DNA of 64,000 nucleotides, taken from the NCBI RefSeq assembly GCF_003349955.1, contig NZ_QLKQ01000004.1, positions 1 to 64,000 on the forward strand. The letters run 5' to 3'. Of this stretch, positions 5,479-30,101 are shown one piece after another (position 1 is the stretch's first letter; each line of letters begins with the position of its first letter). The DNA comes from Azospirillum brasilense (lineage in GTDB: Bacteria; Pseudomonadota; Alphaproteobacteria; Azospirillales; Azospirillaceae). Below the pieces are notes generated by a model. That model worked only from the letters and a program-made list of their open reading frames with translations. It did not search any database and was not told where the DNA came from. The translations under genes and the position numbers were made by a program.

Positions 5479-6549
5479 GTGCCGTTCCGTCCCTTCTTCC
5501 TGCTGACGGCGTTGGACGCGCTGCTGGCGGTGGGGCTGTGGCTGCCGGTCCTGCTGGGGTGGGATGTGTCCGGCGTGATCGCCGACCCGGCGGGGTGGCA
5601 CGGGCGGGCGCTGCTGTTCGGCACGCTGCCGGCGATGATGGCGGGATTCCTGCGCACCGCCCTGCCGCGCTGGACCGGGCAACCGCTGGTCGGCGCGCGC
5701 CTCTGGCCGCTCCTCGTGCCGCCCTGGCTGGCGGGACGGGCGCTGTCGCCCTGGGTGGCCACCGCGCACGCGCCGTTCCTCGCTGCGCTGGCCCTGCTCG
5801 TGACCGCACAGGTCGTCGCCGCGCGGGACCGGCGCAACGCCATCGTCGCGGCCCTGGTCGGTGCGCTGGCCGGGGCGGCGCTGTGCGACGCCGTCCCGGC
5901 CGCCTTGGCGCTGTCGCTCGGGCTGGTCATGCTGCTGGGCGGGCGCATCGCGCCGAGCCTGACCGCCACCCATCTGGGCCTCTCCAGCAAGGCGGCGCTG
6001 TTCACCGGGCGTCCCTGGTTCGAGCACGCCGCCGCCCTGGCCGCGGCCTGCGCATTGGCCGGTTGGCTGGCCGCGCCAAATTCGGGAACGACGGCCGCCG
6101 CAAGCCTTCTCGCCGCGCTGATGCAGACGGCCCGGCTGCTGCAATGGCGGGGCTGGCGGACGCTCGACCGGTCCTCGGTCCTCGCCGTGCACGCCGCCTA
6201 CGCCTGCGTCCCGCTGGGTTTCGCCGCCGTGGCGGCGTCGCCCGGCATGGCGGTGCATTTCTGGACGGTCGGGGCGCTCGGGCTGATGGGCTTCGCGGTG
6301 ATGGCGAGCATGATCCGCAAGCACGCCGGCAACGCCTTCGGACGGTCGGCGGTGGTGACGGGCTGCTACGCGCTGACCGCGCTCGCCGTCGTCCTGCGGG
6401 CGGTGGCCGCGGCGGCGGGAGAGGATGGCCCGCTGTGGCTGCTGGCCGCAGCCGGCGCCTGGAGCGCGGCGGTGGTCCTGTTCCTGGTCGCCTTCGGCCG
6501 TCTTCTCGTCCGCGGCCGCCCAAACTGCTCCACCGTCAACCAGAACTGA
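5479..6549 (+). CDS. nnrS: NnrS family haem/copper membrane protein
   Basis: Polytopic inner-membrane protein of 356 residues with about twelve hydrophobic helices. It starts with the family hallmark PFRPFFLLTALDALL directly after a GTG codon, which fixes the start at 5479. NnrS proteins are linked to tolerance of nitric oxide in denitrifiers and pathogens and are normally under Nnr/Dnr-type control. It lies 28 nt after the Crp/Fnr gene on the same strand and probably shares its transcript. Conserved histidines expected for haem binding, such as in TATHLGLS near residue 160, are present. Confidence 0.92.
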   Translation: MPFRPFFLLTALDALLAVGLWLPVLLGWDVSGVIADPAGWHGRALLFGTLPAMMAGFLRTALPRWTGQPLVGARLWPLLVPPWLAGRALSPWVATAHAPFLAALALLVTAQVVAARDRRNAIVAALVGALAGAALCDAVPAALALSLGLVMLLGGRIAPSLTATHLGLSSKAALFTGRPWFEHAAALAAACALAGWLAAPNSGTTAAASLLAALMQTARLLQWRGWRTLDRSSVLAVHAAYACVPLGFAAVAASPGMAVHFWTVGALGLMGFAVMASMIRKHAGNAFGRSAVVTGCYALTALAVVLRAVAAAAGEDGPLWLLAAAGAWSAAVVLFLVAFGRLLVRGRPNCSTVNQN

Positions 6550-18728: not shown

Positions 18729-20588
18729 CTAGAAGCGTCCCAGTTGATAGGTCGACGCCATCGCGGTCTGCATTGTCTTGACCACGAAGAAAGCGCTTTT
18801 CAAATGGCCTTTTTCGAAACCTGACAACTCTGTGGGAGAGAGGAAATTGTCCGTCGCCTTGCCCTCGCGCGCCATCCGCGCTTGATGACGCAGACGCGTG
18901 ATGCCAATGAACTCCAACGCACCGACCAAGTCCGCGGCGGTCTTCTGGTTGAGCGTCCGTGCCGCTGCCGCCGCCTGCAACCGCTCGGCGGTGTTGACGG
19001 CCGGGCTTCCGGCGGCCAGGGCGTAGAGCCGCGCGATGTCGACGATCGGTACCACGCCATTGTGCTTCAGGTCGAGTGTCCGGTCGTGTTCGCCGCCATG
19101 GATCAGCACGAGGTTGCGGAAGAATCCGATGGGCGGGTGCCGCGAAACCGCGTTTCCCGCCATGTAAGTCTGGAAGATCCGGTTGGACCTGGTCTTTTCC
19201 AGGACAAAATCGTGCAGTTCATTCAACAATCCCGGATCACCGTGAACGTGCCGCAGGTCAAAGAAGACGCAGGACAGCATCAGCGCCTTGGGTTCCGGCT
19301 CTTCGATCCAACGGCGGAAGCAGCTCTTCCAGACCGACAGCGGTTTGCGCCACTGCGGGTTCATCGCCATCATCCCGCCCGGGCAATAGACGTAGCCGCA
19401 AGCGTTCAACCCATGGCAGACGGCGTCGGCGAGCGCCTTGAAGTAGGAGCCGTGTTCCTGTTCGTCGTAGCTGTCGTGCAGGAGCAGGCAATTGTCCTGG
19501 TCGGACAGCGCCGTCTGCTCCCGGCGGGCCTGCGACCCGGCGGCCAGCCAGGCATAGGGGACCGGGGGCGGGCCGAGGCTTTCCTCCACAAGGCCGAGCA
19601 GGCGGACTGTGACGGCGTCGGTCAACGCCGACACGATGTGTCCGATGCTGTGCGCCGTGGCGCCGGACTCCGTCAACTGGTGGACCAGATCCGGCAGGCG
19701 CTGCATGGCCTCCTGCACCCGCTGGGGCGATTCGGCGTTGTGGATGTTCTGGGCCATGAAGACGGGCGAGGCCGTGTGACTCTCCACCACCGACGTCGCG
19801 GTCAGACAGCCCGCCACGGCACCGTCCCGCATCACCGGCACATGGTGGATGTTGTGGCGCGACATCAGCATCAGCGCATCGAGCGCGTAATCCGTCACCG
19901 GCATGCGCAGCGGATCACGGGTCATCACCCGGTCCACCGGCGCGTCGATGGACAGCCCTTCGGCGACGACGCGGTTCCGCAGGTCACGATCGGTAAGGAT
20001 GCCGACCAGCGCGCCACCATTGGTGATCAACACGCAGGACACCCGCTCGGTGCGCATGATCAGCGCCGCATCACGGATCGGGGTGTCCGTCGGAACCGTG
20101 ACCGGATCGCGGGTCAACAGGGCCCCGACGCGCTTGTTGAAAAGATCGGAGCCCCGCGCGCTCGGGGTCCCATCCACAACGTCTTGAAAACGGCCGCCCG
20201 CGAACGCGGCGAAGTGATAGGCGAAGGGAAGGTGGTTGCGGCGCAGCCGGTCGAACATCTCCGACGGCATCAGCAGAAGCCGCGTGTCTTCGATGGTCTC
20301 GGTGCGGTTGACGGCGATGCCGCCCCGCAGGATCGCGCGCACGCCGAAGCATTCGCCCTCGCCCAGCCGGGCGAGCAAATCGCCGTCCGGGCTGCGGGTT
20401 TCCACGGCGCCGAAACAGACGATGTAAAGGGTGTTCGCCGGCTCACCCGGCGTCATGACGACCGTGCCGCGCGGCACGTCGTGGACGGCCAGGTCGCCGC
20501 TGACCTCGGCCAGGGCGTCGGGCGGCAACAGGTCGAACGGATGGTGCCGCCCCAGGAAGTCGTGGAAGTTGCTCGGTTCGGCGTTCAC
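18729..20588 (-). CDS. cNMP-binding/CBS/DUF294 putative nucleotidyltransferase
   Basis: Soluble signalling protein of 619 residues. Domain order: cyclic-nucleotide-type beta-barrel at about 10-125 (HHPFDLLPPDALAEVSGD, then LARLGEGECFGVRAIL); a CBS pair at about 160-285 (GALLTRDPVTVPTD and DRVMTRDPLRMPVTD); DUF294 nucleotidyltransferase core at about 320-450 with AWLAAGSQARREQTALSDQDN, in which G-S and the D-x-D carry catalysis; and a helical C-terminal substrate domain. This architecture is common beside acetate symporter genes in proteobacteria, suggesting a role in carbon or energy signalling. A strong stem-loop separates it from actP. Confidence 0.9.
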   Translation of the reverse strand: MNAEPSNFHDFLGRHHPFDLLPPDALAEVSGDLAVHDVPRGTVVMTPGEPANTLYIVCFGAVETRSPDGDLLARLGEGECFGVRAILRGGIAVNRTETIEDTRLLLMPSEMFDRLRRNHLPFAYHFAAFAGGRFQDVVDGTPSARGSDLFNKRVGALLTRDPVTVPTDTPIRDAALIMRTERVSCVLITNGGALVGILTDRDLRNRVVAEGLSIDAPVDRVMTRDPLRMPVTDYALDALMLMSRHNIHHVPVMRDGAVAGCLTATSVVESHTASPVFMAQNIHNAESPQRVQEAMQRLPDLVHQLTESGATAHSIGHIVSALTDAVTVRLLGLVEESLGPPPVPYAWLAAGSQARREQTALSDQDNCLLLHDSYDEQEHGSYFKALADAVCHGLNACGYVYCPGGMMAMNPQWRKPLSVWKSCFRRWIEEPEPKALMLSCVFFDLRHVHGDPGLLNELHDFVLEKTRSNRIFQTYMAGNAVSRHPPIGFFRNLVLIHGGEHDRTLDLKHNGVVPIVDIARLYALAAGSPAVNTAERLQAAAAARTLNQKTAADLVGALEFIGITRLRHQARMAREGKATDNFLSPTELSGFEKGHLKSAFFVVKTMQTAMASTYQLGRF

Positions 20589-20621
20589 GGCGGGGCTCCG
20601 CAGCGCTGGCGGGAGAAAAGG

Positions 20622-20660
20622 GGAGAGCGGACCCCGCGCGTGCCGCGGGGTCCGCTCTCC
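20622..20660 (-). terminator. Stem-loop after actP
   Basis: Perfect 17-bp arms (20622-20638 and 20644-20660) around a 5-nt loop, followed on the minus strand by CCCCTTTTCTCC. It lies between the actP stop and the DUF294 gene, so it can act as a terminator or as an attenuator lowering expression of the downstream gene. Confidence 0.75.
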
Positions 20661-20686
20661 TCACTTGGTCATCTGATCCAGCCGTG

Positions 20687-22450
20687 TCAGTGGCTGTGAG
20701 CGCTTCCGGCGCCGGCCGGCAACCGGATGGTCTCGATCAGTTCCTGCACGTCGCGCGGCGGGGCCGCCGTCATCTTGCTGACGGCGAAGGCCACCAGGAA
20801 GTTCAGAAGCATGCCCACCGAGCCGATGCCCTCCGGAGAGATGCCGAGCATCCAGTTGGCCGGAACGTCGGCGGCGAGCGGCGCGATGAAGATGCCCTTG
20901 AAGTACAGGATGTAGCCCATCGTGAAGATGAGGCCGGTCAGCATGCCGGCGATCGCGCCCTCGCGGGTGACCGTCCGCGAGAAGATGCCCATCAGGATCG
21001 CCGGGAACAGCGATGCCGCGGCCAGACCGAAGGCGAACGCCACCACCTGGGCCACGAAGGCCGGTGGATTCCAGCCGAGGTAGCCGGCGATCAGGATGGC
21101 GACCGCCGCGGCCAACCGGCCCGCCGTCAATTCCTGTTTCTCCGTGATGTTCGGGGTGAGCGCCCCCTTCATCAGATCGTGCGAGATCGAGGACGAGATG
21201 ACGAGCAGCAGCCCCGCGGCCGTGGAGAGCGCCGCGGCGATGCCGCCCGCGGCCACGAGCGCGATCACCCAGTTCGGCAGGTTGGCGATCTCCGGGTTGG
21301 CGAGCACCATGATGTCGTTGTTGACGGTCAGCTCGTTGCCCTTCCAGCCCCAAGCCGACGCCTTTTCGACGAACTGCGGATTCTTGTCGTTGTAATACTG
21401 GATGCGGCCGTCGCCGTTCTTGTCCTGGAACGCCAGCAGGCCGGTCTTCTCCCAGCGCTTGAACCACTCTGGGCGCTGTTCGTACTCGAGGTTCGCGGTG
21501 GCGACGCCGACGTCGCCGTTCTGGATCGTGGTGGTCAGGTTGTAGCGGGCCATGGCGCCGACCGCCGGAGCCACGGTGTAGAGGAGCGCGATGAAGACCA
21601 GAGCCCAGCCGGTCGACGAGCGGGCGTCGCGCACCTTCGGCACGGTGAAGAAACGCACGATCACGTGCGGCAGGCCGGCGGTGCCCGCCATCAGCACCAA
21701 CGTGATGCAGAAAATGTCTATGGTCGTCTTGTTGCCGTCGGTATAAGCCGCGAAGCCCAGGTCGGTCACCAGGGTGTTCAGCCGGTCGAGCATGTACCCG
21801 CCCGAGGTCAACTCCGAGCCCATCGCGACCTGCGGCACCGGGTTGCCGGTGAGGTTGAAGGCGATGAAGACCGCCGGCACCGTGTAGGCGGAGATCAGAA
21901 CGACGTACTGGGCCACCTGGGTGTAGGTGATCCCCTTCATGCCGCCCAGCACCGCGTAGACGAACACGATGCCCATGCCGACGATCAGGCCGGTTTCGAC
22001 GCTCACTTCCATGAAGCGCGAGAACACGATGCCGACGCCGCGCATCTGGCCGGCGACGTAGGTGAAGGAGATGAAGATCAGGCAGACCACCGCCACCAGT
22101 CGGGCGGCCTTGGAATAGTAACGGTCGCCGATGAACTCCGGCACGGTGAACTTGCCGTACTTGCGCAGGTACGGAGCCAGCAGCATGGCGAGCAGCACGT
22201 AGCCGCCGGTCCAGCCCATCAGGTAGACCGAGCCGCCATAGCCCAGGAAGGCGATCAGGCCGGCCATGGAGATGAAGGAGGCGGCGCTCATCCAGTCGGC
22301 GGCCGTGGCCATGCCGTTGACGACCGGATGCACGCCCTTGCCGGCTACATAGAAGTCGCCCGTGCTGCGCGCCGTGGTGTAGAGGGCGATCCCGAAGTAC
22401 AGCGCGAAGCTGGCACCGACGACGAGGTAGGTGAGTGTCTTGAGGTCCAT
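20687..22450 (-). CDS. actP: ActP, cation:acetate symporter
   Basis: Sodium:solute symporter family permease of 587 residues with about 13 membrane spans that imports acetate and related short carboxylates. The SSS core is seen in GKGVHPVVNGMATAADWMSA and GGMKGITYTQVAQYVVL. A soluble loop of about 90 residues (around 340-430), rich in charged residues, interrupts the helices, as in other alphaproteobacterial ActP forms. Start at ATG 22450 gives MDLKTLTYLVVGASFALYF with AACGGGA upstream; the longer frame reads into the DUF485 gene. The DUF485 partner lies 17 nt upstream. Confidence 0.92.
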   Translation of the reverse strand: MDLKTLTYLVVGASFALYFGIALYTTARSTGDFYVAGKGVHPVVNGMATAADWMSAASFISMAGLIAFLGYGGSVYLMGWTGGYVLLAMLLAPYLRKYGKFTVPEFIGDRYYSKAARLVAVVCLIFISFTYVAGQMRGVGIVFSRFMEVSVETGLIVGMGIVFVYAVLGGMKGITYTQVAQYVVLISAYTVPAVFIAFNLTGNPVPQVAMGSELTSGGYMLDRLNTLVTDLGFAAYTDGNKTTIDIFCITLVLMAGTAGLPHVIVRFFTVPKVRDARSSTGWALVFIALLYTVAPAVGAMARYNLTTTIQNGDVGVATANLEYEQRPEWFKRWEKTGLLAFQDKNGDGRIQYYNDKNPQFVEKASAWGWKGNELTVNNDIMVLANPEIANLPNWVIALVAAGGIAAALSTAAGLLLVISSSISHDLMKGALTPNITEKQELTAGRLAAAVAILIAGYLGWNPPAFVAQVVAFAFGLAAASLFPAILMGIFSRTVTREGAIAGMLTGLIFTMGYILYFKGIFIAPLAADVPANWMLGISPEGIGSVGMLLNFLVAFAVSKMTAAPPRDVQELIETIRLPAGAGSAHSH

Positions 22451-22467
22451 TCCCGTTGCCCCTTCGC

Positions 22468-22749
22468 TCAGTCTTCGTGAACGCCGTGTTGACGGTCGAT
22501 GACGTTCATTCGCATCGCATAGAAGAAAATCAGGGCGACGAAGACATAGATTGAGCCCTGCTGCGCGAACCAGAAGCCAAGCTTGAAGCCGCCGAGATTG
22601 ATGGCGTTCAGTTGATCGACGAGAAGAATGCCGAATCCATAGGAAACAACAAACCATATCACCAGGCAGAGCATGATGAGGCGCAGCGATGCCTGCCAGT
22701 AGCTGTTGCGTTGTGTCGCCCGCGCTGAATCTGCACTGTTCGCTGTCAT
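22468..22749 (-). CDS. DUF485 membrane protein, ActP partner
   Basis: A 93-residue protein with two membrane helices and the DUF485-type sequence WQASLRLIMLCLVIWFVVSYG and INLGGFKLGFWFAQQGSIYVFV. DUF485 proteins (YjcH-like) are almost always encoded just before actP. Start at ATG 22749 is preceded by GGGGAA at a good distance; an upstream extension would contain unrelated basic residues. First gene of the acetate uptake operon; its promoter must lie in the AT-rich gap to the right. Confidence 0.9.
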   Translation of the reverse strand: MTANSADSARATQRNSYWQASLRLIMLCLVIWFVVSYGFGILLVDQLNAINLGGFKLGFWFAQQGSIYVFVALIFFYAMRMNVIDRQHGVHED

Positions 22750-22964
22750 GAGTACGATTCCCCTATATTTTGATATTTTATGGCGCATGGCCATTCGCGA
22801 GGGGGCTGGGAGCGGCATTCCACGGCGGGCACTCGCGTGACCTGCTTCCTTGTCGTCATATCGCCTTTTTGTGAGGCGGTCTAGTAAAACGTAAACAACG
22901 TCAAACAAATAAGCGCCATTCAGAAGATTTATGATAACTAATCTGAGGGCAATACAGTCTGCAT

Positions 22965-22989
22965 TGCGGAAGTAAAAAACACTTCCGCA
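22965..22989. repeat. Perfect 9-bp inverted repeat in AT-rich region
   Basis: TGCGGAAGT and ACTTCCGCA flank a 7-nt A-rich loop, 216 nt upstream of the DUF485 start. Could be an operator or a structured leader of the acetate operon; no T-run follows. Confidence 0.55.
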
Positions 22990-23166
22990 CATCTTTCGAA
23001 ATATAAAACGTCTCTCGCAGGCGTTATTATCCCTCTATATGAATAGGAAAACTTCCATATGTTTCCTTTCATTTTCAGTTTAAGCTTGTCGTAAATGCAA
23101 AAACAAATAGCATTATCATTTGTGCTTTCCGATACAGTAAAGGAATTTATTGACTAAACAATTACG

Positions 23167-23195
23167 TTGACTCACTGCAACGGAAGAAATACAAT
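23167..23195 (+). promoter_or_regulatory. Near-consensus sigma-70 promoter for an unannotated RNA
   Basis: TTGACT at 23167-23172 (five of six matches to TTGACA), a spacer of exactly 17 nt, and TACAAT at 23190-23195 (five of six to TATAAT). Expected transcription start is near 23203. Such a strong housekeeping-type promoter is rare in GC-rich alphaproteobacteria. Confidence 0.7.
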
Positions 23196-23202
23196 GATTT
23201 TT

Positions 23203-23419
23203 GTCACGTAGCGTTGTCAAAATATCGTTACGCAAAACGCCAAGCACGCTGAAGAGTCTATTCTCGCCTATAACGAAATTGTACGTGAGAAATAGTCTAT
23301 GAAGCCTTGTTCGGCTGGATTATGCTTCCCGATATTGCTGACGGGCGCGATGTGGCGTTTTTCTTTCTAGTGCGCCAGACTTGATCGGCACCTTGGCTTC
23401 GGCTGAGGTGCCGATTTTT
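23203..23419 (+). ncRNA. Candidate 217-nt small RNA
   Basis: Bounded by a near-consensus sigma-70 promoter ending at 23195 and a UUCG-loop terminator ending in a T-run at 23419, with no conserved protein inside. Two short frames exist (23 codons at 23299-23370, MKPCSAGLCFPILLTGAMW..., and a start-less frame ending in TGA at 23384), so a small peptide or dual-function RNA is possible. A stem is suggested by GTCTATTCTC near 23265 and GAGAAATAGTC near 23287. No similarity to 6S, 4.5S, tmRNA or RNase P RNA could be recognised. Existence is inferred; function unknown. Confidence 0.5.
23385..23419 (+). terminator. Rho-independent terminator with UUCG tetraloop
   Basis: A 13-bp stem (TCGGCACCTTGGC with GCTGAGGTGCCGA, including two G-U wobbles) closed by TTCG and followed directly by TTTTT on the plus strand. 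On the minus strand no T-run follows, so it terminates plus-strand transcription, yet no plus-strand protein gene lies upstream. Confidence 0.85.
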
Positions 23420-23586
23420 CGTGTGACGATGTTGCGTTGTGCGCCGTATTTCGACGCGACGGGGGTGATGGTTGGTGGTGGCTTGGAGACGAGACAGGGA
23501 AAGGCGCGGAATCGTCCGCCAAAGAGGCGCACCTGTTGCTTCAGCCTCGTTGGGCCGAGCCTTCGGCTAGGCCGCGGAAACCGCTG

Positions 23587-23979
23587 TTACGTGGCGAAAG
23601 AGAGATGTGTCGGAGGACGCCAGCAGGGCGTCGTGCCCCCATGGGGACAGTCGCCGTGCTCGAAGAACAGCACGACGGAATCGGCGAAGATCAGTCGTGG
23701 CGATGCCACGAGAGGAACGGCCTCGTCGCCGATTTGTTCGGGGTCCCCGTTGCTGATCTCCAGAATGATGCTGCTGCTGTCCTGCAGGGTGTCGTCGACC
23801 TTGGCGACCGCCGAATCCTCCGCATGCGCGGATGTGACATCGTACTGCACATTCATTGGGATGGGCAGTATCTCGGCGTGCGCGCCCTGCGCCGGCATCA
23901 GCAATGGCACCAACGACAGCAGCAGGGCTATCGCGATGGCCTTGGCTCCGATCAGCAGGTGGGTTGCCACACACATCAT
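23587..23979 (-). CDS. Hypothetical exported protein
   Basis: A 130-residue frame starting ATGATG with a plausible Sec signal peptide: basic/short N-region, hydrophobic core AIAIALLLSLVPLLM and a cleavage-like AHAE near residue 35. The mature part is acidic and has two cysteines in DCPHGGTTPCW near the C-terminus, which could form a disulfide or metal site. No family recognised. It lies in a disturbed region between a candidate RNA and insertion-sequence remnants, and could be a remnant itself; codon use is only moderately convincing. Confidence 0.4.
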   Translation of the reverse strand: MMCVATHLLIGAKAIAIALLLSLVPLLMPAQGAHAEILPIPMNVQYDVTSAHAEDSAVAKVDDTLQDSSSIILEISNGDPEQIGDEAVPLVASPRLIFADSVVLFFEHGDCPHGGTTPCWRPPTHLSFAT

Positions 23980-24217
23980 GCCTTAATTTGTGCGTTGGAC
24001 CCGCAAACAAATCAAGTCCTATCTGCAAGCCAAACGGGTGCGCAGAGCAGCGCTCCCGGACATGGATCCCCCGTTGCTGGGGACGGAACATGTCAATTGC
24101 ATCGGGTCGCCGGACGCAGAAAGTTGCGCACCCCGTCGTGGGTCCGGCAGAAAAGATGGGCGCTGTCTGGGAGTTGGAATTCGGGGACTGTCAGGAATTT
24201 TGTGCGCGGGCGGGCAC

Positions 24218-24366
24218 CCACTGCGAGGCATGCTCGCCTTCGTGCTCGAACACCATCCGAACCGCAAGTTCGCGGACTTCAGGAGCGTGTTTGGGTGATG
24301 CTTGCTTCGTCATGTTGACTCCAGTCTCTCAGGAAACGGAGCCTCCGAGAAACCCGGAGCGGTTCA
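24218..24366 (-). mobile_element. IS3-family remnant (left end and start of orfA)
   Basis: On the minus strand, an ATG at 24313 opens 32 codons beginning MTKQASPKHAPEVREL and containing AVRMVFEHEGEHASQW, which is the N-terminus of an IS3-family OrfA transposase. Similarity stops at Trp32 (24218), after which the frame is unrelated, so the element is truncated. Upstream, the minus strand from 24366 reads TGAACCGCTCCGGGTTTCTC, consistent with the terminal inverted repeat and leader of such elements. It abuts an IS5-type transposase fragment at 24367. Confidence 0.8.
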
Positions 24367-24497
24367 GTATGCTCGGGCGCCTCAACGATTTTCGGCGCAT
24401 TGCCACACGCTACGACCGTTCCACCATCAATTTCATGGCAGCAATCCTCATCGTGGCAACCGTAGCCTACGGGCTATGGGTCCGGACCCTAAGCTAC
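24367..24497 (+). mobile_element. IS5-family transposase C-terminal remnant
   Basis: Plus-strand frame from 24369 reads GRLNDFRRIATRYDR followed by STINFMAAILIVATVAYG, the conserved C-terminal end of IS5-family DDE transposases, where the final catalytic-domain helix is followed by a short hydrophobic tail. Everything 5' of this is missing because an IS3-type end begins at 24366. The usual stop is lost and the frame reads on. The palindrome GGGTCCGGACCC at 24478-24489 may belong to the element's outer end. Pseudogene. Confidence 0.8.
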
Positions 24498-24532
24498 CGC
24501 TTGGATTCCTGGCGGAAGATATGGAAATGCGG

Positions 24533-24565
24533 AAAAAAGCCCACCGGCGGAGGGCCGATGGGCTT
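24533..24565 (-). terminator. Rho-independent terminator
   Basis: On the minus strand, a 12-bp stem AAGCCCATCGGC / GCCGGTGGGCTT with one G-U pair and loop CCTCC runs into TTTTTT (24538-24533). It ends the candidate small RNA and would also stop read-through from the ubi-cytochrome c operon 140 nt upstream. Confidence 0.88.
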
Positions 24566-24627
24566 GGGAAGGGGGCAGAAAAACGGGAGGGTACTCGTCC
24601 AGCGGGACGCAATCGATCAACGATCGT
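24533..24627 (-). ncRNA. Candidate 95-nt Fnr-controlled small RNA
   Basis: Minus-strand unit bounded by an Fnr-type promoter (box 24662-24675, -10 TAGGAT) and a Rho-independent terminator ending in six U. Predicted +1 is an A at 24627, exactly 41.5 nt from the box centre. The RNA has C-rich single-stranded-looking stretches (UACCCUCCCG, GCCCCCUUCCC) and a terminator loop CCUCC, all complementary to Shine-Dalgarno sequences, a style known from CCUCC-motif small RNAs of alphaproteobacteria. It lies downstream of the cytochrome c gene, so it could also be a processed 3' end of that operon. Not matched to any named RNA. Confidence 0.55.
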
Positions 24628-24633
24628 GCGGTC

Positions 24634-24675
24634 ATCCTAGCCGCTGCGTACCCTCCCATCCTTGACGGCGGTCAA
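24634..24675 (-). promoter_or_regulatory. Fnr/Dnr-type promoter reading leftwards
   Basis: Perfect palindromic box TTGAC-N4-GTCAA at 24662-24675 and a -10-like TAGGAT at 24639-24634, at exactly the distance expected for a class II Fnr promoter. The box and flanks match the ubiT box region at 21 of 23 positions. The same bases can also fold as a weak hairpin behind the cytochrome c gene, so the promoter reading is not certain. Confidence 0.6.
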
Positions 24676-24701
24676 GCCGCCAAGGACATGTGCTGATTTC
24701 G

Positions 24702-25070
24702 TCAGCTGTTTTTTTTCAGATAGGCGATCAAGTCCTTGCGGGCCTGCTCGTTCTTCACCCCGGAGAAGGCCATCTTGTTGCCGGGGACGGCGCTCTTCGG
24801 GTCCGCCAGATAGGCGTCGAGCGTCGCCTCGTCCCAGGCCGGAGCGTTCTTCATGGCGTCGGAGTATTTGTAGGTCTCGACGGAGCCGGCCTTGCGACCG
24901 ACGACGCCGTGCAGGTTGGGGCCGACGCGGTTCGGGCCGCCGGCCTCGATGGTGTGGCAGGCCTTGCACTGGTTGAACACCTTTGCACCGGCATCGGCGT
25001 CCTGCGCGGCGGCAAGGCCGGGGGCCGACGCGACCAGCGCGAAGGCGAGCAGGGCAAACATGCGCTTCAT
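24702..25070 (-). CDS. Class I c-type cytochrome (cytochrome c2/c550-like)
   Basis: Periplasmic electron carrier of 122 residues. A Sec signal peptide (MKRMFALLAFALVASAPGLA, cleaved near AAAQ) precedes the haem site CKACH at residues 35-39; the axial methionine is in GNKMAFSGV, and the ends match mono-haem cytochrome c2/c550 (GPNLHGVVGRKAG, DLIAYLKK). Start at ATG 25070 after AAACG; the longer frame lacks a signal. It follows ubiV by 101 nt on the same strand, so it may be expressed with the anaerobic ubiquinone genes and pass electrons to oxidases or N-oxide reductases. Confidence 0.92.
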   Translation of the reverse strand: MKRMFALLAFALVASAPGLAAAQDADAGAKVFNQCKACHTIEAGGPNRVGPNLHGVVGRKAGSVETYKYSDAMKNAPAWDEATLDAYLADPKSAVPGNKMAFSGVKNEQARKDLIAYLKKNS

Positions 25071-25083
25071 AAGCGTTTCCTCG

Positions 25084-25116
25084 TTCAACGGACTCAAAAG
25101 TTTCAACGGACTCAAA
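25084..25116. repeat. Direct repeat between ubiV and the cytochrome c gene
   Basis: TTCAACGGACTCAAA occurs at 25084-25098 and 25102-25116, an 18-nt period. Each copy contains a degenerate half of an Fnr-like box (TTCAA-N4-CTCAA), so it may be a weak tandem regulator site or a simple duplication just upstream of the cytochrome ribosome binding site. Confidence 0.6.
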
Positions 25117-25171
25117 GGTCAGCCGGGCCGCGCGAAAGCGACGGTCCGACGGACGTCGGATGGCGGCCGCC

Positions 25172-26080
25172 TCAGGCGGCCGGGGCGTCGGCGTAGGCCG
25201 CGCCCGCCATGTTGTGGAAGAAGCCGTTCTCCAGCGGGACGGCGGTCATGCCGCGCAGCTCCGCCATCACCTCCTGTCCGCTGCGCGCGCCGTCCAGGAC
25301 GGCGCGGAAGGCCGTGGCGACGGCGACCATGTCGAGGTCCTGCGGCGACAGGCGGAAGCGCCGGATGCCCATCGCCCGCAGCCGGTCGATCTCCGCCGCC
25401 AGCGCCAGATAGCCATGCGACAGCGTCTGCGTGCCGTTGACCGACAGGAAGGGCTGGCCGTCGACGGTGCTGACCGGCATGCCATCCGGATCGTTGGCGC
25501 AGACGAACTGGCAGCCGTCCTTGTGCAGTGCGTGGGCCCGCGCGTGGTAGCAGCGGGCGGAGATGGCGAGCGGCGCCCGCCCGAACACCTGCACCTCCAT
25601 GGACAGGCCGAGCGCCGCCCCCGTCTTCGCCATCACGGCGACCGAGGCGGCGGGAAGCTCCGCCGGCAGCGACACGGCGACGGCGCCGCGCCCGGCCAGC
25701 CAGGCCAGGGTCGCTTCGTTGTAGCTGTTGATGAAGGGGCCGACGGCGTGGCGGCGTCCATCCAGCAAGGCCAGCGCGCCCATGTCGTTGGCCTCGATCG
25801 GCAGCAGGTCGCTCTCCAGGAGGTCGCGCATCGCCGCACGCTCGCGGTCGCTGCCGACCAGGATCGGGCTGGCGAGCCAGACCTCCTTCCCGGCGGCGGC
25901 CAGACGGGCGATCACCTCGTCCATGACCGGGGCGAGGAAGGGCGCGCGCTTGGAGCAGACGATCTCGCCGACGACGACGGCGTCGACCGGCGCCTCGTCG
26001 GCGATGCGGGCGTAGAAATCGCGCCAGCGCTCCGCCGGCCAGTTGAACAGGACGGGGCCAAGGGTCAGGGTGGGTTTCAT
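25172..26080 (-). CDS. ubiV: UbiV, anaerobic ubiquinone hydroxylation protein (peptidase U32 family)
   Basis: Subunit of the UbiUV heterodimer that, with UbiT, replaces the O2-dependent hydroxylases in ubiquinone synthesis. The 302-residue U32-family protein has the four cluster-ligand cysteines Cys42 (VCSKR), Cys177, Cys190 and Cys194 (ARCYHAR, DGCQFVCAN), matching the spacing of the E. coli 4Fe-4S ligands (39, 180, 193, 197). FNWPAERWRDFYARIADEAPVD and PLENGFFHNMAG are family landmarks. Start at ATG 26080, 12 nt after ubiU. Supports ubiquinone production during N-oxide respiration. Confidence 0.95.
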   Translation of the reverse strand: MKPTLTLGPVLFNWPAERWRDFYARIADEAPVDAVVVGEIVCSKRAPFLAPVMDEVIARLAAAGKEVWLASPILVGSDRERAAMRDLLESDLLPIEANDMGALALLDGRRHAVGPFINSYNEATLAWLAGRGAVAVSLPAELPAASVAVMAKTGAALGLSMEVQVFGRAPLAISARCYHARAHALHKDGCQFVCANDPDGMPVSTVDGQPFLSVNGTQTLSHGYLALAAEIDRLRAMGIRRFRLSPQDLDMVAVATAFRAVLDGARSGQEVMAELRGMTAVPLENGFFHNMAGAAYADAPAA

Positions 26081-26092
26081 GAACGCAACTCC

Positions 26093-27091
26093 TCAGCGCC
26101 ACGCGCGGGTGTAGGCGCCGGTGGTCTGGGCCCCGCCCTCGACCATGGCCTCCAGGTCGAGCGCCGGCACCGGCAGCCCGCGGTCGAACGCGTCCAGCGC
26201 CCGGCGGTAGGCGGCGACCACGGCGGCGATGTACGCCTTGCCGCGCTGGCGGCCTTCGATCTTCAGGGCGCACACCTTGGCGGCCTTCAGCTCCGGCAGC
26301 AGGGCCAGCGCGTTGAGGCTGGTCGGCTCCTCAAACAGATAGGCCGGGTCGCTGGATGTCCCGCCGCCGGGCACGAAGCGGCCCTTGCACAGCGTCGGGT
26401 AGCCCGCCGGCTCCCCGGCGCCGAAGACGTTGATGGTGAAGCCGCCGAGGCGCGACGCCAGCGCCTCGCCGCGCGGCTCGTAGCGGACATGGCTGGCCGG
26501 GGAGCAGACGCCCTGCTTGTTGGGCGACAACCCGGTCGCGTAGGAGGACAGCGAGCAGCGCCCCTCCGCCATCGGGCAGAGGCCGCCGAAGACGAAGACC
26601 TCCGTCTCCACATCGACCTCGGCGTTCAGCCGGGCGATCTCCGGCACCGTCAGCACGCGGGGCAGCACGACCCGCCGCACGCCGAAGGCCTCGCGGTAGA
26701 GCCGGATCGCCTCGGCGTTGGCAGCCGACGCCTGGACGGACAGGTGGAGTCGCAGCTCCGGATGGTGCTCCGCCGCGTAGGCGAGCAAACCGAGGTCGGC
26801 GAGGATGACGGCGTCCGCCTTCAGCCGCGCGGCGTCGTCCACCGCGCGCTGCCAGGGGGCGAGGTTGCCGGCCTGGGGGTAGGTGTTGATGGCGACGAAG
26901 ACCTGGACGGACCGCGCGTGGGCGTAGGCGATGGCCTCGGCCAGCTCCGGCCGCGAGAAGTTCAGGCCGGGGAAGTTGCGCGCGTTGGTCTCGTCGCGGA
27001 AGCCCAGATAGACGGCGTCGGCGCCCGCGTCCACGGCGGCGCGCAGCGCGGCGGGGCTGCCCGCCGGGCAGATCAGCTCGAAGGAACTCAT
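26093..27091 (-). CDS. ubiU: UbiU, anaerobic ubiquinone hydroxylation protein (peptidase U32 family)
   Basis: Partner of UbiV in O2-independent ring hydroxylation. The 332-residue protein begins FELICPAGSPAALRAAVDAG with YLGFRDETNARNF, typical of UbiU, and has cysteines 172, 179, 196 and 235 (GGLCPMAEGRC, KQGVCSP, YPTLCKG), offset by a constant three residues from the E. coli 4Fe-4S ligands 169, 176, 193, 232. It starts 4 nt after the ubiT stop and ends 12 nt before ubiV, so ubiTUV are one translational block. Confidence 0.95.
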   Translation of the reverse strand: MSSFELICPAGSPAALRAAVDAGADAVYLGFRDETNARNFPGLNFSRPELAEAIAYAHARSVQVFVAINTYPQAGNLAPWQRAVDDAARLKADAVILADLGLLAYAAEHHPELRLHLSVQASAANAEAIRLYREAFGVRRVVLPRVLTVPEIARLNAEVDVETEVFVFGGLCPMAEGRCSLSSYATGLSPNKQGVCSPASHVRYEPRGEALASRLGGFTINVFGAGEPAGYPTLCKGRFVPGGGTSSDPAYLFEEPTSLNALALLPELKAAKVCALKIEGRQRGKAYIAAVVAAYRRALDAFDRGLPVPALDLEAMVEGGAQTTGAYTRAWR

Positions 27092-27095
27092 CCCG

Positions 27096-27743
27096 TCACG
27101 CTCCCTGCCGCGGGCCGGTGAGCCGCCGCTCCAGCATGGTCATGCCCCAGCGCAGCGGCGGCGGGGCGAAGCGGCGCGCCGTGGCGAGCAGGTCGAGCGC
27201 CCGCCCGGCGTTGCGCCGCGCCACGGGCAGGGCGTGCCGCAGCGGGCCGGCCGCGGCGGCGACGTCGCCGAACAGGTCCATCTCCTCGCCGTCCAGCGTG
27301 TTGCGGAGCGCCAGGATCAGGGCGGTGTCGCCCTCGATGGAGAGTTCGCGGCGGAAGAACAGCGCGTCGCCGTCGATGCGCCCTTCCAGCAGGTCGAGGA
27401 GCCGCGCGCAGGGGCCGCGCACCGTGGCCTCCGCCTCGGCGCTGCGGTCGCAGACCCGCAGGGCCAGGGTGGGGCCGACGCGGAGCAGCAGGGCGGCGGG
27501 CGCGTCCACCGGGTCGATGAGCAGGCGGGCGTCGGGCAGCTCGCCGAGGGCGGCGAAGGCGCGGGGGTGGCGCGCCTCCAGAATCCGCAGCAGCCGGTCG
27601 AACAGCAGGCCGCCGGCCCGGTCGCCGAGCCGCCGCGCGACCCCCAGCCCGGCGCGCGTCAGTTGGACTTCGACGTCGCGGGCACGGGGGTCCGGGGCCG
27701 TCTCATGGGCCTGATCCTGAACCATGAATCCGGGATCGCGCAT
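27096..27743 (-). CDS. ubiT: UbiT, SCP2-domain accessory factor of anaerobic ubiquinone synthesis
   Basis: Lipid-binding (SCP2 sterol-carrier fold) protein that brings the isoprenoid quinone intermediate to the anaerobic pathway. The 215-residue protein shows the family signature DGDALFFRRELSIEGDTALIL near residue 130 and LLIDPVDAPAALLLRVGP before it. Start at ATG 27743 with AAGGAG eight nt upstream. It heads the ubiTUV block and carries an Fnr-type box about 94 nt upstream of its start codon, consistent with known anaerobic control of these genes. Confidence 0.93.
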   Translation of the reverse strand: MRDPGFMVQDQAHETAPDPRARDVEVQLTRAGLGVARRLGDRAGGLLFDRLLRILEARHPRAFAALGELPDARLLIDPVDAPAALLLRVGPTLALRVCDRSAEAEATVRGPCARLLDLLEGRIDGDALFFRRELSIEGDTALILALRNTLDGEEMDLFGDVAAAAGPLRHALPVARRNAGRALDLLATARRFAPPPLRWGMTMLERRLTGPRQGA

Positions 27744-27803
27744 ACGCCTGTCTCCTTCCCTTCGGAATGGTCGTGTGGCGGGCGGAGCCCGCCGGGCTTC
27801 GGC

Positions 27804-27843
27804 AATACAGCCCGGTGGTCATACCATCCTTGATGACGGTCAA
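27804..27843 (-). promoter_or_regulatory. Fnr/Dnr-type promoter of ubiTUV
   Basis: Box TTGAT-GACG-GTCAA (plus-strand reading) at 27830-27843, one base from a perfect palindrome of the Fnr consensus, with a -10-like TGTATT at 27809-27804 on the minus strand near the class II position. A GGCGGGC/GCCCGCC hairpin at 27777-27793 would sit at the 5' end of the mRNA. Confidence 0.7.
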
Positions 27844-27874
27844 GCCCAAGGTCCCGAAGCGCCCCCTGGGGCGA

Positions 27875-28387
27875 TCAGCCGCACATCCCGCCGCAGCAGG
27901 AGCCGGAGCGCCGGGCGACCAGCCGCTCGTAGGGCAGGTGAAGCTGCCCGGCCGGCGGGATGACTCCCTGCATCAGGTCGAGCACCTGCTCCGTGGTCGT
28001 GCCGGGCGGGCAGTCGGTGATCTCGCAGACCAGCCCGCCATCCGCCACGCCGAGCGGCGTCTCGGCGGCGACTGCGCTCGCCTGCCCGCCGCGCCCGATG
28101 AGGACCCGCAGGGAGGTCGCCGGGGCGGTGCCGGACTCGGGCCGCCCGATGCGCACCCGCCAGCGCTCCGGCCCGCGCTCCAGATAGGTCCAGCTCACCG
28201 CATCGCCGAACAGCGCCTGGATCTGGAGGGAGAGTGGGCGCGGGTCGTGGTCGTTGACCAGCACGAAGCCGCGGCCCGGCGCCAGATCCTGCGTGGCCTG
28301 GAGAATCAGCGGGTGGCGCTGGTGGGGCGGAATGGACTGGACGTCGATGACCGGCTCGGCCGCGGTGGACTGTTCGGCGATCTGCAT
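27875..28387 (-). CDS. DUF2249 domain protein with cysteine-rich tail
   Basis: A 170-residue cytoplasmic protein. The first 90 residues are a DUF2249 domain: DVQSIPPHQRHPLILQATQ, FVLVNDHDPRPLSLQ with the conserved N-D-H-D-P at 45-49, and TYLERGPERWRVRIGR. The C-terminus ends in CCGGMCG, a likely metal or thiol site. DUF2249 proteins cluster with NO reductase, nitrite reductase and hemerythrin genes, as here, but their biochemical function is unsettled. It is divergent from a Crp/Fnr gene, with an 11-2-11 palindrome in front of its start. Confidence 0.85.
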   Translation of the reverse strand: MQIAEQSTAAEPVIDVQSIPPHQRHPLILQATQDLAPGRGFVLVNDHDPRPLSLQIQALFGDAVSWTYLERGPERWRVRIGRPESGTAPATSLRVLIGRGGQASAVAAETPLGVADGGLVCEITDCPPGTTTEQVLDLMQGVIPPAGQLHLPYERLVARRSGSCCGGMCG

Positions 28388-28421
28388 GGGGGAGGTCCGG
28401 AGGGTTGCGATGTGGCGGCAA

Positions 28422-28445
28422 GCCTAAAGGACTGGTCCTTTAGGC
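28422..28445. promoter_or_regulatory. Perfect 24-nt palindrome between DUF2249 and Crp/Fnr genes
   Basis: Arms GCCTAAAGGAC and GTCCTTTAGGC are separated by TG. It lies 35 nt upstream of the DUF2249 start and 162 nt upstream of the divergent regulator gene. It is not an Fnr-type box; a dedicated operator is likely. Confidence 0.7.
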
Positions 28446-28606
28446 TCTTTGTTCCAGGACAAATTGCTACCTTAGTTCCGTCTTCGAGCGTCAAGCCGAG
28501 CGCAGGCGGGTTGCGGCGCGGCGCGCGGGCGGTCATCTTGGAAGGCAACCTTTCCGTGACGGCTGCCCGCAGGGGTGGGCGGGCACGACCTTTTGAGGAT
28601 GGTCCG

Positions 28607-29332
28607 ATGACGCCGCTTGCCCCCGATCCCGCCAGTCTGCGTGGCTTGCGGCTGTTTTCCGGTCTGGACGCGGCGGCCCTGGCGGAGATCGTCCGCTCCG
28701 CCCACACCCGGCGGATCGGGAAGGGAACCACCATTTTTTCCCAGGGGGACCGGGCGGCCCTCTGCCACGCGCTGATCGATGGGCGGGTCAAGATCGTCCA
28801 GACCGGAGCCGACGGACAGCAGCTGGTGGTGCGTTACATCGGTGCGGGGGAGATGTTCGGCACGGCGGCGGTCTTCTCGGGCGGCATTTACCCCGCCGAC
28901 GCGCTCGCCATGGTCGATTGCGTCGGCGTCCACTGGACCGCCGCCACCATGGGCGAACTGATGGAGCGCTATCCCCGCATCGCGTTGAACGCCCTGGACA
29001 TCGTCGGCCGCCGCCTGCAGGAGGTGCAGACCCGCCTGCGCGAGCTGTCCACCGAACGGGTGGAGCGGCGGGTCGCCCACGCCCTCCTGCGTCTGGTCCG
29101 TCAGGCGGGCCGCCGGGTCGGGAATGGCGTCGAGATCGACTTTCCGCTGTCCCGGCAGGACATCGCGGAGATGACCGGGACCACGCTGCACACGGTGAGC
29201 CGCATCCTCAGCGGCTGGGAGGGGCAGGGGATCGTCGAGGGCGGGCGCCAGCAGGTGACGATCCGCCAGCCGCACGCCCTGGTCGCCATCGCCGAGGATC
29301 TGCCCAGGCCGGAGACGCCGGAGGAGAAATAA
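28607..29332 (+). CDS. Crp/Fnr-family regulator (Dnr-like)
   Basis: Transcription factor of 241 residues: effector barrel at about 15-130 (RLFSGLDAAALAEIVRSAHTRR, IGAGEMFGTAAVF), long dimer helix around 135-160, and winged helix with the recognition segment LSRQDIAEMTGTTLHTVSRILS. No N-terminal Fe-S cysteines, so it belongs with Dnr/NnrR-type sensors, which respond to NO in known members. Start at ATG 28607; the longer frame runs through the intergenic palindrome. Its neighbours DUF2249, DUF1858 and hemerythrin suggest it controls an NO-linked regulon through the boxes found nearby. Confidence 0.88.
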   Translation: MTPLAPDPASLRGLRLFSGLDAAALAEIVRSAHTRRIGKGTTIFSQGDRAALCHALIDGRVKIVQTGADGQQLVVRYIGAGEMFGTAAVFSGGIYPADALAMVDCVGVHWTAATMGELMERYPRIALNALDIVGRRLQEVQTRLRELSTERVERRVAHALLRLVRQAGRRVGNGVEIDFPLSRQDIAEMTGTTLHTVSRILSGWEGQGIVEGGRQQVTIRQPHALVAIAEDLPRPETPEEK

Positions 29333-29354
29333 CCGGGGCGGACCCTTCGTCCCG

Positions 29355-29370
29355 TTTGCGCCGGCGCAAA
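29355..29370 (+). promoter_or_regulatory. Crp/Fnr-family box before the DUF1858 gene
   Basis: Perfect 16-nt palindrome TTTGCGCCGGCGCAAA, i.e. TTGCG-N4-CGCAA. Its centre is 41.5 nt upstream of the A of the ATG at 29404, and TACGGT occupies the -10 position, so transcription may begin at or very near the start codon. Confidence 0.7.
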
Positions 29371-29403
29371 GAGACGCGCGTTCCGGTGCGCTACGGTGCC
29401 GGG

Positions 29404-29640
29404 ATGATCGCCCCGCCATCACACCGCGCCACCGCGGCCTTGCCCTCGTCCTCCGACCTTGTCGAGGATGTGCTGGAGCGCTGGCCGTCGACCATTCCCG
29501 TGTTCCTCAAGCACCGGATGGCCTGTCCGGGCTGCCCCATGGCGCGTTTCCAGACGATCGCCGAGGTGGCGGACGACTATGGCCTGGACGCCGACGCTCT
29601 GCTCGGCGAGTTCGCCCAGGCCATCGCGGCGGAGGAGTGA
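29404..29640 (+). CDS. DUF1858 small disulfide/metal protein
   Basis: A 78-residue protein with the DUF1858 pattern: helix VEDVLERWPSTIPVFLKHRM, the redox or metal motif CPGC (Cys41, Cys44), and TIAEVADDYGLDADALL. Such proteins are encoded beside hybrid-cluster, ScdA/RIC-type or NO detoxification genes. Start ATG 29404 has only a poor ribosome binding site; together with the promoter geometry a leaderless mRNA is possible. The gene converges with hemerythrin and shares the same box type. Confidence 0.85.
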   Translation: MIAPPSHRATAALPSSSDLVEDVLERWPSTIPVFLKHRMACPGCPMARFQTIAEVADDYGLDADALLGEFAQAIAAEE

Positions 29641-29645
29641 CGCGC

Positions 29646-30101
29646 TCAGCGGTTCGCCGTCGTGTCGGCGAGGGCGGCGCGGTCGATGACGTCGTACAGC
29701 TCCAGGTCCTCGCGGGCGATGCGGTGCTTGAGGGTGGTCACCACCTCGCGCGTCTCGCGGACGAAGGTTTCCGGGTCCTTGGACACCGCCAGCGGGCCGG
29801 GCCAGCTCGCCCGGTAGCGGTCGAAGCGTGCCCGCAGGCTGCCCATTTCGGCCTGGAAGCGCGCCGCCGTGGCGCGCAGCGCCGGGGTCGGGTGGGCCAG
29901 CAGGCGCGGGTAGAGCGCGCTGTCCTCCAGCGACAGGTGGACGGTGAACACGCCGAACAGGTCGCGGACCGCCGTGGCGAGAGCGGCGGCGTTCGCCACC
30001 GGGGACGGCGCCGCCAGCAGGGAGTCGATCCGGTCGACGAGCTGTCCCACGGTGGCGTGGTGATGGCGGTACAGGGTGGTGCTGATGGCTGCACTGGACA
30101 T
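29646..30101 (-). CDS. Hemerythrin HHE domain protein
   Basis: A 151-residue four-helix-bundle protein expected to bind a di-iron centre. Ligand motifs are readable: YRHHHATVG at residues 11-19, FTVHLSLEDSALYPRL with His55 and Glu59, and LKHRIAREDLELYD near the C-terminus. In NO-associated clusters such proteins sense or scavenge NO or repair iron-sulfur clusters; which applies here is not known. Start at ATG 30101 with GGAG at good spacing. A TTGTG-N4-CGCAA box lies about 85 nt upstream. Confidence 0.9.
   Translation of the reverse strand: MSSAAISTTLYRHHHATVGQLVDRIDSLLAAPSPVANAAALATAVRDLFGVFTVHLSLEDSALYPRLLAHPTPALRATAARFQAEMGSLRARFDRYRASWPGPLAVSKDPETFVRETREVVTTLKHRIAREDLELYDVIDRAALADTTANR

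Follow-up and report, generated by a model that had tools for sequence, protein, structure and literature searches.

Background

Small RNAs that respond to oxygen, among them FnrS, NarS and PcrZ (PMC8139620), are a known kind of regulator, and the predicted RNA described here, from Azospirillum brasilense, most likely founds a new family of that kind, FnrS-like in working but with an anti-Shine-Dalgarno seed. Azospirillum is in wide use as a crop inoculant; it fixes nitrogen under low oxygen, and denitrification is common in it. The FnrS family is present in Rfam. The likeness to enterobacterial FnrS, as far as the available part of a review describes it (PMC8139620), lies in a small RNA with an Fnr-controlled promoter and expected anaerobic expression, from which a repression of functions unneeded without oxygen would be the likely expectation here too. 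In contrast to FnrS, to which it bears no sequence relation, the RNA carries a CUCC anti-Shine-Dalgarno seed and is restricted to Azospirillum in the searches made. PcrZ of Rhodobacter sphaeroides, compared by description, is also alphaproteobacterial, induced at low oxygen and dependent on an Fnr-type protein, its control by FnrL being possibly indirect according to a table in the same part of the review (PMC8139620). DenR (sRNA-29) of Paracoccus denitrificans, again compared by description, is a denitrification-linked alphaproteobacterial small RNA that acts via a GntR-type regulator and whose activator is given as unknown by the review (PMC6686037, PMC8139620, both in the sections available); PcrZ and DenR are the alphaproteobacterial entries in the available portion of the review's table (PMC8139620). 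NfeR1 of Sinorhizobium, of the alpha-r14 family, resembles our RNA in being alphaproteobacterial, in its three hairpins and in an anti-Shine-Dalgarno-type seed; in the sections of its description at hand (PMC10746234) it is a 123-nt RNA that carries CCUCCUCCC in the unpaired part of all three hairpins, is under LsrB and NtrC control and silences ntrB via anti-Shine-Dalgarno motifs, whereas here one shorter core lies in a linker or in the loop of hairpin 1, behind an Fnr-type promoter. The literature searched, as far as its texts were available, held no report of an Fnr-controlled small RNA of Azospirillum, and the available main text on nitrogen-starvation small RNAs of A. brasilense Sp245 (PMC7685610) gave no match to the RNA.

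Our reading of the locus, which we regard as reasonably likely, is a trans-acting small-RNA gene under a low-oxygen switch of the Fnr/FixK family whose CUCC core would cover Shine-Dalgarno sequences.

Locus structure and predicted promoter

The window (the whole 64-kb stretch of A. brasilense DNA that was analysed) carries the unit on its minus strand, with the following features in and around it:

24662..24675 (-), Fnr-type dyad TTGACCGCCGTCAA, read from the sequence, centre 24668.5, at -41.5 from the predicted +1
24634..24639 (-), -10 element TAGGAT, at -12 to -7 if +1 is 24627
24533..24627 (-), predicted small RNA, 95 nt, +1 being the A at 24627; covariance models R1 and R2
24610..24626 (-), hairpin 1 of the predicted fold, 6 bp, loop UUGAU here
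24596..24609 (-), hairpin 2 of the predicted fold, 5 bp here and up to 9 bp in relatives
24566..24595 (-), C/U-rich linker with CCUCCCG (24590-24584) and UUUUUC, unpaired in the predicted fold
24533..24565 (-), Rho-independent terminator of the predicted fold, 12-bp hairpin and U run
24702..25070 (-), cytochrome c gene (PF00034), 5' of the RNA and outside the unit
25172..27743 (-), neighbouring ubiT-ubiU-ubiV operon (ubiT 27743-27096, ubiU 27091-26093, ubiV 26080-25172; NCBIfam UbiV, UbiU and UbiT above cut-off)
27843-27830 (-), dyad at ubiT similar to that of the RNA, from the one-mismatch box search

The initial annotation of this DNA had proposed an Fnr-controlled small RNA here, and on re-reading of the minus strand the geometry it gave for the box, the TAGGAT spacing, the +1 A and the terminator is exact. 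The dyad has the class II Fnr/Crp-type spacing (centre about -41.5), counted from a predicted +1, and six T follow the terminator hairpin, the last at 24533, which gives the predicted length of 95 nt. A perfect box occurs once in the 64-kb window; with one mismatch allowed there are three sites against 0.73 expected, a number reached by 3 of 100 shuffles. The match of 21 of 23 positions to the ubiT promoter that had been claimed holds for a 23-mer shifted by one base, but the centred 23-mer agrees at 20 of 23. The stretch shared at 21/23 by the RNA promoter and the ubiT promoter dyad (27830-27843) reads GGCTTGACC..TCAAGGATGG, and one of the two promoters could derive from the other by duplication.

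Distribution across genomes

Blastn against 100 relatives gave matches in 21 genomes, and in nine of these the match spans nearly the whole stretch from box to terminator. Two covariance models were built with the box excluded, R1 from ten RNAs and R2 from 15, the latter being run over 82 genomes of the order. Over 45 Azospirillum genomes R1 returned its ten input copies and five distant ones with different stems, and in all five of the latter a perfect dyad stands exactly 48 bases 5' of the RNA start; R2 added 16 further copies with the dyad at -48 (14 copies) or -49 (two). One strong copy per genome is found in 31 of the 45 Azospirillum genomes, and every one of the 31 matches of at least 36 bits in the R2 search of the order has the dyad. 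It had been expected beforehand that box, -10 element and terminator would be conserved together in relatives, and a covariance search had been proposed; models blind to the box recover copies that bear it, and the parts are kept as a unit in 31/45 genomes.

Weaker matches behave differently. The other 21 R1 matches examined comprise 20 without a dyad and one (G006) whose dyad stands 38 bases ahead of the RNA start, a displaced and shortened version in which the dyad is 10 bases off its usual place. Twelve further R2 matches examined include one (L170) that belongs to the 31 and 11 without a dyad at -48 or -49; a similar dyad occurs at -25 in L171. Thirteen of the 45 Azospirillum genomes gave no match with a box, and matches examined in other genera of the order (leaving aside the terminator-only G104) showed no dyad at -48 or -49. 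Over 385 genomes of the class, R2 gave three other matches at E<=0.003 (38.7, 31.0 and 30.5 bits), none with the dyad; the 38.7-bit match (G175, E 2.5e-5) is from outside the family and boxless, so that outside the order score alone is no proof of kinship. A strict pattern of dyad plus CTCCCGTTTT, which would miss lipoferum-type copies, found the window's own copy alone in the 385 class genomes. The pattern of dyad, 32-37 bases and CAATCG is present in 26/45 Azospirillum genomes, all within the 31, with none in the control, four of its 30 matches lying at other places (G015, G004 twice, G037). Run on the 11 other dyad loci of the own genome and on two alpha-r14 matches, R2 gave weak matches only. 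At the search sensitivity used, the small-RNA family is limited to the genus.

Within the 31 copies a dyad of the form TTGAY-N4-RTCAA lies upstream of the RNA start without exception, at -48 in 29 and at -49 in two, so that its centre falls at -41.5 in 29/31 and at -42.5 in 2/31, measured from the RNA start of the model, +1 being predicted. A-11 and T-7, the positions generally regarded as the most important of a -10 element, are present in all 31 and the other four positions vary; C-1 and C+2 are likewise invariant (31/31), A+1 occurs in 29/31, and strong conservation sets in at the predicted +1. Mean pairwise identity among the ten brasilense-type copies and among 14 of the 16 copies L155-L170, respectively, is 95 and 90% in the box, 75 and 53% in the spacer that leads from it to the -10 element, 72 and 80% from -14 to -1, 90 and 91% over the first 60 bases of the RNA, and 86 and 81% over its last 35. 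Outside the unit it is 61 and 44% 3' of the terminator and 78 and 70% 5' of the box, coding sequence included.

Predicted RNA structure

The 95-nt RNA has a predicted folding energy of -35.0 kcal/mol (z -3.98; 1 of 200 shuffles equally good), in the order hairpin 1, hairpin 2, free C/U-rich linker and terminator, and with the terminator counted this three-hairpin layout is predicted for 30 of the 31 copies folded singly (L138 is the exception). Hairpin 1 is paired in 98.9% of cells across the 31 sequences, with two pairs changed on both sides, and its loop reads AUCUCC in most lipoferum-type copies. For hairpin 2 the model alignment pairs 71.6% of cells, and single folds of lipoferum-type copies give a longer, shifted stem; in the terminator both sides have changed in 7 of 12 pairs. 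Overall the 31-row alignment, which is fitted to the model and leans towards it, has both-sided changes in 12 of 23 pairs. This same model-fitted alignment contains 62 both-sided cells against 23.0 +- 4.5 in shuffled ones (0/500 as good), and at most 25 when pairing partners are slid by 1-3 columns; restricted to the ten close copies, the test shows no significant covariation, 157 of 500 shuffles doing equally well.

The absence of a protein frame inside the unit, noted in the initial annotation, is borne out among the 31 copies, which have no common frame. This bears on the highly improbable alternative that the conserved stretch has no function as a small RNA and is a promoter and terminator only, or a short coding transcript: open frames do start inside the RNA in some copies, but their start codons, phase and length differ from copy to copy, the unit ends at its terminator after about 95 nt, and two annotated records show a convergent gene next to it. 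In eight plasmid records with the locus no protein gene is annotated there. The terminator hairpin (24537-24565) is itself nearly symmetrical, the model matching its opposite strand as well, and the convergent nnrS gene of A. brasilense reaches exactly to the RNA terminator, so that the terminator may stop both genes.

Against Rfam, no family scored above threshold for the RNA in the window or in 20 relatives, and positions 20000-30000 of the window gave no FnrS match at E<=5. Membership of the alpha-r14 or cuckoo family (NfeR1 type) was considered and rejected, and we hold it to be very improbable. It would account for the three hairpins, for the anti-Shine-Dalgarno-like core and for a full-length match to RF02344; this match is below threshold, however (27 bits against 58.8), the defining triple motif CCUCCUCCC occurs in none of the 31 copies, and none of the 20 relatives (of 30) that were run against Rfam has an alpha-r14 match at E<=1. 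In the own genome RF02344 matches six places below threshold, the strongest away from the locus of the window's RNA (32.2 bits, E 8.8e-4; L001 1501-1617, C105), and at E<=10 it also matches 9 of 14 control genomes.

Genomic neighbourhoods

In the ten brasilense-type copies the RNA lies 3' of ubiTUV and the cytochrome c gene on the same strand (tblastn; in G008 the cytochrome c match covers residues 44-122 only). In two annotated records it has the ubiTUV/cytochrome c side on one flank and, on the other, an nnrS-Crp/Fnr-nos block in convergent orientation; one record lists no cytochrome c gene. The other 21 copies have no cytochrome c relative on either side (stretch of up to 1.5 kb), and one of them (G001) has ubiV beside the RNA, making 11/31 copies next to ubiV and 20/31 with neither ubiV nor cytochrome c in the flanks examined. 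In G001 the RNA is preceded by ubiV and followed by nnrS; in G003 it is flanked by a COX3-type gene, norE-like by eye, and by nirK; in G026 it comes after nirK, and in G018 a HemD gene and an iron transporter lie on its two sides. G023 has a COX3-type gene nearby. In 16 copies (G039 and 15 of L155-L170) an RND efflux gene precedes the RNA, at a distance of about 860 bases in L155. A search for ubiT in viral contigs found none.

These arrangements speak to the origin of the RNA. Processing from the 3' end of a ubiTUV-cytochrome c mRNA, as NarS is derived from narK (PMC8139620, in the part available), would suit the 10/31 copies with ubiV and cytochrome c ahead of the RNA on the same strand, and in a read-through transcript GGGAGGGTAC of the spacer could pair with GUACCCUCCC of the RNA. 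Yet 20/31 copies keep the dyad, A-11, T-7 and C-1 beside unrelated genes with neither ubiV nor cytochrome c, and the spacer between box and -10 element is poorly conserved; we therefore judge a 3'-UTR origin improbable. The alternative entertained in the initial annotation, that the RNA is cut from the 3' end of the cytochrome c transcript, loses ground in the same way, 21/31 copies having no cytochrome c neighbour. Because the unit keeps its parts while its neighbours change, it is probably not just a processed tail of that mRNA: box, -10 element, predicted start, RNA and terminator are to be read from their conservation as a unit that travels across unrelated neighbourhoods. The proposed tie to the anaerobic ubiquinone operon survives as adjacency to ubiV in 11/31 copies, but it is loose, the other 20 lying elsewhere.

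Two observations concern the window itself. GGGAGGGTAC (24648-24657, in the spacer) is the exact complement of GUACCCUCCC (24585-24594, in the RNA), partly kept by eye in brasilense-type copies, and read-through mRNA from the cytochrome c side would thus mask the anti-Shine-Dalgarno core. A relative of the nnrS gene that in A. brasilense abuts the RNA terminator lies at 5479-6432 (+), about 18 kb from the RNA (89% identical over 318 residues), from which the window seems rearranged or seems to hold an insertion starting just behind the terminator (24529-24533).

Probable regulon and candidate regulators

The 7.1-Mb own genome contains 12 perfect dyads, against three for the reversed control pattern. 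Seven of the 11 others are at hemN (its radical-SAM domain exceeds the cut-off, HemN_C falls just short), hemA, nnrS, a hemerythrin gene, a gene for a norC-like cytochrome that precedes a norB-like gene (by eye), a gene that has an FMN-binding domain and resembles nosR by eye, and the nap genes, in the last case about 760 bases 5' of napA; the remaining four are at or in genes with no apparent anaerobic link. One Fnr-like protein of the genome has CX2CX7C at its N-terminus, its best NCBIfam model being FnrL (197.9 bits, below the cut-off of 300); a FixK-like protein lacks CX2CX7C. Since PF13545 has 15 matches above the Pfam cut-off in the genome, nothing points to Fnr in particular. The Crp/Fnr protein at 28643-29329 falls far below the cut-offs of 12 NCBIfam models, among the matches listed. 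To our knowledge, TTGAC versus TTGAT half-sites do not separate Fnr from FixK or Dnr. One common consensus is given for FnrN and FixK in the available part of an alphaproteobacterial study (PMC4999443). Going by the box, the activator would be a protein of the Fnr/FixK family, either Fnr itself or a FixK/Dnr-type relative.

Such an activator would bind the box at -41.5 and switch on transcription under low oxygen; Fnr biology and the company that the box keeps in the genome suggest activation under oxygen limitation alongside denitrification and haem genes. That the locus is a small RNA with an Fnr-type switch is highly likely, and control of the predicted RNA by oxygen quite likely. A genus-wide RNA tied to an Fnr-type box would add a post-transcriptional arm to the switch, as FnrS does in enterobacteria.

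Putative anti-Shine-Dalgarno core and candidate targets

CUCC(C) is the feature outside the stems common to nearly all copies. The window has CCCUCCC at 24591-24585, CCCCCUUCCC within the linker and CCUCC in the terminator loop, all of which the initial annotation had read as anti-Shine-Dalgarno motifs. The reading is supported in part, for the CUCC core, a C-rich segment able to pair with GGAG that is predicted to be unpaired in 29/31 copies, but not for CCCCCUUCCC or the terminator-loop CCUCC, which are not kept in close relatives. The core occurs as CUCCCG in the linker of 14 copies (9/10 brasilense-type, G001, G003, G026, G039 and G002) and as CUCC in the hairpin-1 loop of 16, G039 having both; it is missing in the close relative G008 (CUUCCCG) and paired in G018. 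The lipoferum-type linker mostly reads CCUCUUUCG instead. The difference in seed position between the two clades is a natural experiment that could tell which segment of the RNA is the active one.

Through this core the RNA may bind Shine-Dalgarno sequences and so reduce the translation of particular mRNAs, repression by covered ribosome-binding sites being suggested by the motif and by the NfeR1 precedent; given such an RNA, pairing with ribosome sites is likely. An Fnr-type small RNA could also act otherwise, as a sponge for a small RNA or a protein or via its conserved hairpins. Conservation is among the highest in hairpin 1 and at the 5' end, and the energy test described below showed no general pairing with ribosome-binding sites; against this, an unpaired CUCC is kept in 29/31 copies despite its differing place between clades, and we consider action of this other sort unlikely.

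The prediction of targets from the C-rich stretch, proposed in the initial annotation, yielded sites that recur within the brasilense clade but energies no better than those of decoys. Linker duplexes averaged -15.6 kcal/mol over 79 start regions and -15.9 over 79 coding decoys, and 8 of 10 shuffled linkers gave better energies than the real one. The linker complement AAACGGGAGG precedes an ATG at 37 sites in the ten brasilense-type genomes, against two for the reversed sequence, a control that ignores ordinary Shine-Dalgarno sequences. Genes that recur (all named by eye) encode a hydrolase-like protein (8/10 genomes), an ABC-type binding protein (confirmed in six, like letters in three more), a glutathione-transferase-like protein (confirmed in five, like letters in one more) and a small secreted-looking protein (four genomes). 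The hydrolase-like candidate has a duplex energy of -33.3 kcal/mol, better than all 79 background starts. Of the lipoferum-type complement, ACGAAAGAGG, matches before ATG include a dnaK-like gene in 14/14 genomes; its other matches are an ABC-type binding protein in three and the antisense strand of the RNA itself. The target sets examined for the brasilense clade and the lipoferum type have no protein in common. These recurrent matches before ATG are candidate targets by sequence, and leads only.

A wider reading of the small RNA, which we put forward tentatively and with less than even confidence, is a single-copy, genus-wide anaerobic riboregulator of the Fnr/denitrification regulon that would silence genes of oxic life and uptake, and whose seed would have moved from the linker (brasilense) to the hairpin-1 loop (lipoferum) with promoter, start and fold fixed.

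Two of the weak model matches resemble each other in another way: L171 1557-1640 (-), from G022, and L153 1501-1580 (-), from G019, both have GUUUCCUCCCU(U)AGACUCGA just before a terminator, and L171 also has TTGATCTGAGTCAA upstream. This element is possibly another CCUCCC small RNA.
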